Under the pieces are notes generated by a model, which saw only the letters and a program-made list of their open reading frames with translations, searched no databases and had not been told where the DNA came from. A program made the translations under genes and the position numbers. DNA of 43,598 bases from Bacteroidetes bacterium HGW-Bacteroidetes-13 (lineage in GTDB: Bacteria; Bacteroidota; Bacteroidia; Flavobacteriales; Flavobacteriaceae), in the NCBI GenBank assembly GCA_002841025.1, contig PHDQ01000003.1, positions 1 through 43,598 of the forward strand, written 5' to 3'. This document shows, piece by piece, positions 40,757-43,437 of the stretch (positions within the stretch are counted from its first letter, which is position 1; the number at the start of each line of letters is the position of its first letter).

Positions 40757-41998
40757 ATGACACCTTCAGGAAAAATAGAATTGATGGCTCCGGCAGGAAA
40801 TTTTGAATCCCTGCAAGCCGCTTTAGACAACGGTGCCGATTCAGTTTATTTTGGCGTCGAACAACTCAACATGCGGGCGCGTTCTACCATCAATTTCACC
40901 TTGAAGGATTTGCCGGAAATAGCCAAACGTTGCCAAGACAAAAACGTCCGAACCTATCTGACATTGAACACCATCATCTACGACCACGATCTGTCGGTAG
41001 TAAAAACCCTCTTGACCAAAGCCAAGGCAAACAACATCAGTGCAGTCATTGCTTCCGACCAAGCCGTTATTTCGACCGCCCGAAGCCTGGGGCTTGAAGT
41101 ACATATTTCTACACAACTGAATGTGACCAATATAGAAACCGTTAAGTTTTACAGCCTCTTTGCAGATACCATCGTTCTTTCTCGCGAATTAAGTTTGCGT
41201 CAGGTCAAAAATATTACCGAACAAATCGCCAAAGAACAAATCAAAGGTCCCAATGGAAATCTGATAGAAATAGAAATTTTTGGACACGGTGCCTTGTGTA
41301 TGGCCGTTTCCGGGAAATGTTATTTAAGCCTGCACTCGCATAATTCTTCTGCCAATAGAGGTGCGTGCAAACAAAATTGCCGGAAAAAATATACGGTCAT
41401 CGATCAAGAAAGTGGTTTTGAAATCGAAATTGACAACGAATACATGATGTCACCCAAAGATCTATGCACCATTGACTTTCTCGACCAAGTAATCGATTCA
41501 GGCATCAAAGTATTGAAACTTGAAGGTCGCGGTCGCGCACCGGAATACGTGGCAACCGTCACCAAAACCTATCGCAACGCAATAGAAGCCTACTACGAAG
41601 GTACTTATACCAAAGATAAAATCGGCGTATGGATGGATGATTTGTCCACCGTTTACAACCGGGGCTTTTGGGCCGGTTATTACCTCGGTCAAAAATTGGG
41701 TGAGTGGAGTGATAATCCGGGCTCAAATGCTACCCAAAAGAAAGTTTATATCGGTAAAGGCATGCACTATTTCCCTAAATCGGGCGTGGCAGAATTCAAA
41801 ATCGAAGCATACGATCTGACGAAAGGTGACAAAATTCTCATCACCGGCCCAAGCACGGGCGCACAAGAATTGGTTGTTGAAGACATGTTTGTCAACGACG
41901 TCGATGCCGAAAAAGCTTCAAAAGGAGATAGTTGTACTTTCAAAACACCCTTCCGAATTCGCCTTTCCGACAAACTTTATAAAATTGTAGCGGGTTAA
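40757..41998 (+). CDS. Peptidase U32 family protein
   Basis: 413 aa; ELMAPAGNFESLQAALDNGADSVYFGV; EIFGHGALCMAVSGKCYLS; NRGACKQNCRKKY; KLEGRGRAPEYV. Confidence 0.93.
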   Translation: MTPSGKIELMAPAGNFESLQAALDNGADSVYFGVEQLNMRARSTINFTLKDLPEIAKRCQDKNVRTYLTLNTIIYDHDLSVVKTLLTKAKANNISAVIASDQAVISTARSLGLEVHISTQLNVTNIETVKFYSLFADTIVLSRELSLRQVKNITEQIAKEQIKGPNGNLIEIEIFGHGALCMAVSGKCYLSLHSHNSSANRGACKQNCRKKYTVIDQESGFEIEIDNEYMMSPKDLCTIDFLDQVIDSGIKVLKLEGRGRAPEYVATVTKTYRNAIEAYYEGTYTKDKIGVWMDDLSTVYNRGFWAGYYLGQKLGEWSDNPGSNATQKKVYIGKGMHYFPKSGVAEFKIEAYDLTKGDKILITGPSTGAQELVVEDMFVNDVDAEKASKGDSCTFKTPFRIRLSDKLYKIVAG

Positions 41999-42003
41999 AA
42001 CAA

Positions 42004-42044
42004 TTTGTCTTTAAATATTTTGTACATATATTTGTACATATATT
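42004..42044 (+). promoter_or_regulatory. YefM-YoeB-type operator with embedded Bacteroidota promoter
   Basis: TTTG (42004-42007)-N19-TATATTTG (42027-42034); perfect tandem 12-mers TGTACATATATT at 42021-42032 and 42033-42044; TGTACA cores 12 bp centre-to-centre. Confidence 0.85.
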
Positions 42045-42064
42045 TTCATTAAAAATCATTTGCC

Positions 42065-42319
42065 ATGATAACAACAACTTTATCGGATTTCAGGAAAGAC
42101 ATCAAGACATATTTTAAAAAAATCACGGAAAATTTCGAAACATTAATTATAAACAGGGGGAAAGACAGTGGGGTGGTAATTATCTCTTTGGATGAATACA
42201 ATTCGCTAATGGCAACCCGGCATGAGCTTTCATCTGCCTCGAATGAAAAAAGATTGGATGCTGCCATTGAAAAATTGAAAAACAAACAAACATTTGAAAA
42301 AATACTTTTGGAAGAATGA
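42065..42319 (+). CDS. yefM: Type II antitoxin, YefM/Phd family
   Basis: 84 aa; MITTTLSDFRKDIKTYFKKI...LIINRGKDSGVVIISLDEYNSLMATRHEL aligns by eye to YefM; ATGA overlap with the toxin ORF. Confidence 0.92.
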   Translation: MITTTLSDFRKDIKTYFKKITENFETLIINRGKDSGVVIISLDEYNSLMATRHELSSASNEKRLDAAIEKLKNKQTFEKILLEE

Positions 42320-42831
42320 AGTATATTTTTGTTGATGAATCTTGGGAAGACTATCTGTATTGGCAAAAAACGGATAAAAAAATGCTTCGTAAAATCAATG
42401 ATTTGTTACACGATATTTCCCGCACACCATTTTCCGAAATTGGCAAACCCGAACCTTTAAAATTCAAATACAGAGGTTTTTGGTCAAGAAGAATTGACAA
42501 TGAGCACCGGTTGATTTATCAAGTCCGGGAAGATGAAATATTGGTTGCTAAATGCAGATTTCATTACGATTTGATTTTTCTAAAATCCCTTTCACTTCAA
42601 ATGGTCATCATCACCCTTCAAAGAGAAAAATGCATCGGCTGCAACTACTGCGTCGAATTGGATTCGGCACATTTTCGCATGTCAAAAAAAGATGGAAAAT
42701 CGGTTCTTTTAAAGTCAATCAACAACAAAGGGTTTCACACGCTCAAATCGCCTGACCACAACATATTGGAAAAATCTGAATTAGCTGCCAAAGCTTGTCC
42801 GGTGAAAATTATCACTTTGAAAGAAATATAA
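42316..42831 (+). CDS. YoeB toxin (aa 1-84) fused in frame to a single [4Fe-4S] ferredoxin domain (aa 96-171)
   Basis: ESWEDYLYWQKTDKK...GKPEPLKFKYRGFWSRRIDNEHRLIYQV...CRFHY = YoeB; linker DLIFLKSLSLQ; MVIITLQREKCIGCNYCVEL...KACPVKIITLKEI = ferredoxin; uninterrupted frame. Confidence 0.88.
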   Translation: MKYIFVDESWEDYLYWQKTDKKMLRKINDLLHDISRTPFSEIGKPEPLKFKYRGFWSRRIDNEHRLIYQVREDEILVAKCRFHYDLIFLKSLSLQMVIITLQREKCIGCNYCVELDSAHFRMSKKDGKSVLLKSINNKGFHTLKSPDHNILEKSELAAKACPVKIITLKEI

Positions 42832-42883: not shown

Positions 42884-43294
42884 CTATATGAATTGCTCTT
42901 TCAGCAAGGCAATTACTTGATTTTCTGTCATTGAATCTGCCGTATCGACAAATTTTACTTTACCTGACATTGCTTTTATTTTTGATATTGCCTTATGCAA
43001 CCCGATCTTTGCCTCCGCCGGTCCCAAAATAACAATAGAATCTGCCTCTTTGAGAGCTGCAATCACTTTTTCATAATAGTTCTTAAGCTGTTGCGTGAGT
43101 TTTTTTTCTTTGACCTTTTCAAAATTTGAAAATTGATTACCCATCCGTGTGTATTGCTTGCCTTCTCCATCCACTCGGATTCGGCTTTCAAAATTGGATT
43201 CAATGGATTTAATCGTTTCCTTCCCATTGTTTAAAATGACAAGTGTTGCTTTTTTACTGTCAATCCAAACGCCTACTTGTGTTAGATTTTTCAT
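42884..43294 (-). CDS. Pelota/eRF1 domain-2-like 'translational machinery' type protein
   Basis: ~136 aa; GVWIDSKKATLVIL, YYEKVIAALKEADSIVILGPAEAKIGLHKAI, KFVDTADSMTENQVIALLKEQF; start MKNLTQVG. Confidence 0.55.
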   Translation of the reverse strand: MKNLTQVGVWIDSKKATLVILNNGKETIKSIESNFESRIRVDGEGKQYTRMGNQFSNFEKVKEKKLTQQLKNYYEKVIAALKEADSIVILGPAEAKIGLHKAISKIKAMSGKVKFVDTADSMTENQVIALLKEQFI

Positions 43295-43437
43295 GGTATT
43301 GATTTTAGTTTTATAAAAAATTAGCCTATTTCTTACAGAAGACACATAAGAAAATAATCACATAAATTTAGTGATTTTTGCGTAAAAAAGCTAATAAAAA
43401 AGACCCTTTTTGAATTACAATAATCATTATTTTTTTG

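Follow-up and report, generated by a model that had tools for sequence, protein, structure and literature searches.

A YefM-type paired operator interlaced with a putative Bacteroidota promoter upstream of yefM-yoeB

Positions 42004-42044 of the window, the whole analysed stretch of 43,598 nucleotides from Bacteroidetes bacterium HGW-Bacteroidetes-13, very probably form the promoter-operator of a self-repressing yefM-yoeB operon, a reading in which binding, transcription start, repression and its strength are deduced from the sequence. A YefM-type pair of palindromic cores and a promoter of the Bacteroidota type appear to share the same bases, and the arrangement recurs at many related loci.

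Direct reading of the window (42000-42067: acaaTTTGtctttaaatatttTGTACATATATTTGTACAtatattttcattaaaaatcatttgccATG) confirmed two TGTACA cores at 42021-42026 and 42033-42038 (no strand assigned), which are 12 bp apart from centre to centre and lie 26 bp 5' of the yefM start. Relative to the predicted transcription start, core 1 extends from about -18 to -13 and core 2, the longer imperfect palindrome of the two, from about -6 to -1. The original prediction had equated this spacing with that of E. coli, and indeed the E. coli yefM upstream region reads TTGTACAATGAACTGTACAA, which also places the cores 12 bp apart from centre to centre. The perfect 12-bp tandem duplication to which it had drawn attention is present as well, with positions 42021-42044 consisting of two copies of TGTACATATATT (24 bp), but is incidental: conservation among relatives is limited to the cores, the TATATT between them and the 12-bp step. 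Since the second TATATT (42039-42044) is not conserved, a functional tandem repeat or slippage was ruled out.

TGTACA as such occurs in the window at chance frequency (6 sites versus 6.5 expected), as it would if the site had arisen by chance and had no regulatory meaning. However, TGTACA-N6-TGTACA is found only once in the window, where 0.04 sites are expected even with one mismatch, and the pattern searches that provided all genome-wide statistics identified the pair at 12 bp as the sole occurrence in the whole 2.54-Mb genome. Together with the retention of the pair at yefM across phyla, this makes a chance origin so improbable that it can practically be neglected. The shorter pattern GTAC-N8-GTAC has ten sites in the genome, fewer than the 48 of the reversed-pattern control, and a genome-wide search detected no TGTACA pair at any of the others. 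A wider YefM regulon was ruled out, as the genome is devoid of any other TGTACA pair.

The gene downstream of the cores, yefM (42065-42319, + strand, ATG at 42065), encodes an antitoxin and putative repressor of 84 residues (Pfam PF02604, 2.5e-15). In alignment with E. coli YefM, the DNA-contacting residues Arg10 and Arg31 are invariant; both are needed for operator binding in the E. coli protein (PMC4803016). yefM overlaps by 4 bp with the yoeB toxin domain (42316-42570, + strand; PF06769, 4.6e-37; TIGR02116, 1.5e-34, above cut-off), and this order of a YefM/Phd antitoxin followed by a YoeB/Txe toxin is that of a YefM-YoeB type II toxin-antitoxin operon. The closest solved relative of the toxin domain is E. 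coli YoeB (PDB-ID 2a6q, 2e-33). Alignment located Glu46, Arg65, His83 and Tyr84 in the domain, which retains all 26 positions that are invariant in a nine-sequence alignment.

A free YoeB would end at or just after His83-Tyr84. Here the protein continues into a ferredoxin (42601-42831, + strand; Pfam Fer4_15, 1.3e-9) that is a separate gene in relatives: the yoeB stop is lost (HYD-TTG...) and a length difference of 1 nt sets the 4Fe-4S ferredoxin in frame, giving a YoeB-ferredoxin reading frame from 42316 to 42831. This in-frame join, which leaves the operator assignment unaffected, could be a real fusion or a matter of assembly. YoeB is a candidate co-repressor, and its fusion to ferredoxin may alter that role. 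The main text of a 2025 survey of RelE/ParE multidomain toxins (PMC11980606) does not mention ferredoxin.

For comparison, yefM upstream regions were drawn from the same order, the same phylum, 80 named genomes across the bacteria and E. coli. Filtering by a YefM profile and deduplication left 92 loci of the Bacteroidota group, a few of them from MAGs of Ignavibacteria and Chlorobiota, and 35 other loci. When Bacteroidota yefM upstream regions were searched for 12-bp pairs, as proposed at the outset, GTAC cores paired at exactly 12 bp were recovered from 83 of the 92 Bacteroidota-group loci, nine lacking such a pair, and from 27 of the 35 others, with 0.03 loci expected from shuffled sets. The GTAC-GTAC distances show a sharp maximum at 12, which accounts for 102 pairs from the Bacteroidota group and 27 from the others; nearby distances are almost empty. 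Earlier work already noted that a wide range of bacteria retain both the sequence and the spacing of the operator (PMC7730913, PMC3920265, PMC4803016). With two TGTACA cores at a 12-bp step, located upstream of yefM and overlapping the promoter, the window has the sequence layout of a YefM-YoeB paired operator, which supports the assignment of the pair as a putative YefM-type operator 5' of a genuine yefM-yoeB pair.

The number and step of the cores vary at some loci. At 19 Bacteroidota-group loci and at none of the 35 others, the series continues after another 12 bp with a third core, possibly the site of a third YefM dimer; examples with three GTAC cores in 12-bp steps are L033, L034, L036, L040-L042, L044, L048, L059, L061, L068 and L116, and the window has two cores. 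At four gammaproteobacterial yefM loci (L078, L082, L084 and L098), two cores abut as TGTACATGTACA, a 6-bp step, beside a further core.

Primary-sigma promoters of Bacteroidota combine TTTG and TAHHTTTG with about 19-20 nt between them (PMC6847099, PMC7366714), TAHHTTTG being the refined -7 consensus of F. johnsoniae (PMC6847099). In the window, TATATTTG at 42027-42034 (+ strand) matches this consensus and overlaps core 2 by its final two bases. The sequence TTTG at 42004-42007 (+ strand) can be read directly 19 nt upstream, within the expected 19-21 nt although one short of the modal spacing of 20, and begins 5 bp past the U32 stop codon. Both elements had been named in the original prediction as -7 and -33 boxes, and both assignments gain from the relatives, in which the placement of the -7 box on core 2 is conserved and oriented and TTG is enriched at 19-20 nt. 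Since the sigma-A box lies at -12 to -5 (PMC9723704) and 4-5 nt separate the -7 box from the start (PMC6847099), transcription is predicted to begin at 42039-42040 (+ strand), leaving a leader of 25-26 nt to the ATG.

Among paired loci, TAnnTTTG ending on the G of core 2 is present in 48 of 83 from the Bacteroidota group versus 1 of 27 others (Fisher p 2e-7, calculated over loci that are in part related and thus not independent samples). The mirror-image motif, reading into core 1, occurs at only 1 of the 83, and this imbalance therefore points to an oriented promoter and not to operator symmetry or AT-richness. Shuffling of the spacer gives 3.2 composite sites on expectation and at most 10 in 1000 shuffles, and 29 representative paired loci with less than 70% YefM identity contain ten forward and no mirror sites. 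A TTG precedes the 48 composite boxes at a spacing of 20 in 24 cases and of 19 in six, with 0-5 cases at any other spacing; 31 of the 48 loci have it at 19-21 nt, as do eight of the ten composite representatives at 19-20. None of the 48 carries a G at either H position, in line with TAHHTTTG, and the distance from box to ATG ranges from 15 to 31 nt (30 in the window). In three Ignavibacteria/Melioribacteraceae MAGs (L057, L058 and L065), the same TAnnTTTG is accompanied by a TTG at 20 nt, which suggests that these lineages share the Bacteroidota-type promoter.

These data bear on an alternative in which the TGTACA pair does act as operator but the TATATT spacer belongs to that operator or simply reflects AT-richness, the promoter being located elsewhere, for instance 5' of U32. 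The region is indeed AT-rich, the module is embedded in a U32-ferredoxin operon, which makes read-through likely, and 35 of the 83 paired Bacteroidota-group loci lack TAnnTTTG on core 2. Such a spacer would, however, account neither for the orientation bias and its excess over the shuffles nor for the concentration of TTG at 19-20 nt and the missing G at the H positions, and the same operator is found in other phyla without TAnnTTTG. A promoter located elsewhere is accordingly considered quite unlikely. At the 35 loci the -7 box is elsewhere or unrecognisable: it ends in core 1 at about eight (e.g. L015, L037, L043), starts inside core 1 at four or five (L017, L019-L021, perhaps L028) and lies downstream at several, where core 2 takes the -33 position (L125, L128, L130), while about ten are without a clear box. 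A sigma70-like TACRAT leading out of core 1 occurs at 11 of the 27 loci from other phyla, and likewise in E. coli, versus 6 of the 83 Bacteroidota-group loci; with so few instances, a sigma70-type reading of the Bacteroidota promoter was ruled out.

Taken as a promoter threaded through an operator, the site would work as follows. RNA polymerase carrying the Bacteroidota primary sigma factor would read TTTG as -33 and TATATTTG as -7 element and start near 42039-42040. YefM dimers, binding more strongly with YoeB, would occupy both TGTACA cores, which at 12 bp are separated by roughly one turn of the helix. Core 1 would then abut the -7 box on its upstream side, and the final two bases of the box would be overlapped by core 2, which would also cover the DNA up to the start site; in these positions the bound repressor would be expected to exclude or stall the polymerase, so that the operon represses itself.

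Of the original proposal that repressor site and non-sigma70 promoter are intertwined, the architecture thus stands and extends well beyond the window, but the tight autorepression derived from it does not. Repression is full in E. coli pyy, where the -10 element is covered by the long palindrome and the short one lies at the start site, and leaky in Axe-Txe pat, where the L palindrome lies in the linker and the S palindrome partly on the -10 element (PMC7730913). Because the cores of the window (-18 to -13 and -6 to -1) adopt a register between the two, the strength of repression is not predictable. Moreover, transcription may read through the operator due to the location of the module inside the U32-ferredoxin operon.

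This location is evident from relatives. A U32-family peptidase gene (40757-41998, + strand; PF01136, 1.4e-67) precedes the module, which splits it from the ferredoxin gene. Of 19 loci fetched from other genera of the family, 18 have the two genes side by side, and in several relatives their stop and start codons overlap; the loci compared for this setting were L144 and L147-L165. In G643, a member of the genus without yefM-yoeB, U32 adjoins ferredoxin as in an empty site. The inserted module is shared by the window and its sister species G642 (84% DNA identity). On the other side of the module, a convergent gene (42884-43297, - strand) encodes a protein of 137 residues with no Pfam match, and near the contig end (43560-43582) the window contains the inverted repeat TGCCTGtggCAGACAGGCA.

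In G642 (L143, G642:C53), core 1 and the spacer are gone, core 2 has become TATACA and no -7 box is left. Its YoeB carries an internal stop as well as the exchanges S57F and H83Y, its YefM is intact and under purifying selection, and yoeB and ferredoxin are in separate frames. The joint loss of operator and toxin constitutes a natural control and gives indirect support to a site that serves the module. It could also be taken, along with the lost YoeB stop codon and the in-frame ferredoxin fusion of the window, as a sign that the module is decaying in the window too and that the operator is an intact relict. Yet both cores and the -7 and -33 elements of the window are intact, its YoeB retains all invariant positions, and pairwise dN/dS values are 0.06 for yefM and 0.10 for yoeB, from which decay in G642 is probably recent; the relict is therefore regarded as rather improbable. 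It is a speculative, though slightly less remote, idea that the autorepressed promoter now sets the level of ferredoxin, as YoeB-ferredoxin, and that the toxin-antitoxin switch is being domesticated as regulator of the U32-ferredoxin operon. If true, the YefM operator would also govern a housekeeping gene, following insertion of yefM-yoeB between U32 and ferredoxin.

Across the compared loci, the geometry of the repressor site is the constant to which the host promoter is fitted. The sequence recognized by the host polymerase is accommodated differently: in Bacteroidota, TAHHTTTG ends in core 2, and the loci of other phyla often have a TACRAT that starts in core 1. This suggests how a mobile module stays self-repressing when it passes between lineages whose promoters are incompatible. 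The operator geometry itself is textbook knowledge from E. coli and Axe-Txe, whereas its Bacteroidota-wide merger with the promoter seems to be unreported; literature searches, confined to open-licence texts so that absence is weak evidence, returned no report of a Bacteroidota YefM operator. The comparison delimits a group of Bacteroidota promoters that are putatively self-regulated and have a clear -33 element. They are of use for examining the disputed function of that element and for constructing repressible promoters.

The closest known counterpart is E. coli pyy, in which two TGTACA cores 12 bp apart likewise overlap the promoter in front of yefM-yoeB and YefM has the same Arg10/Arg31 pair (PMC4803016, PMC7730913). 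It differs in its sigma70 -10 element, TACAAT, which leads out of core 1, whereas TAHHTTTG of the window ends in core 2, so that the register is off by ~4-5 bp; moreover, E. coli has its longer palindrome at core 1, the window at core 2. Enterococcus axe-txe pat has the same cores and 12-bp step, one core lying within the linker of the promoter and the second extending partly over the -10 element (PMC7730913), but its promoter is of the sigma70 type, strong and poorly repressed, and, judging from its published description, the cores of the window lie somewhat further downstream relative to the promoter. With sigma-ABfr promoters of Bacteroidota the window shares TTTG and TAHHTTTG at about 19-20 nt; in contrast to these, its -7 box has bases in common with a repressor core. 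Finally, the -33 TTG is hardly evident in the genome-wide promoter set of F. johnsoniae and much clearer in the composite yefM promoter set.
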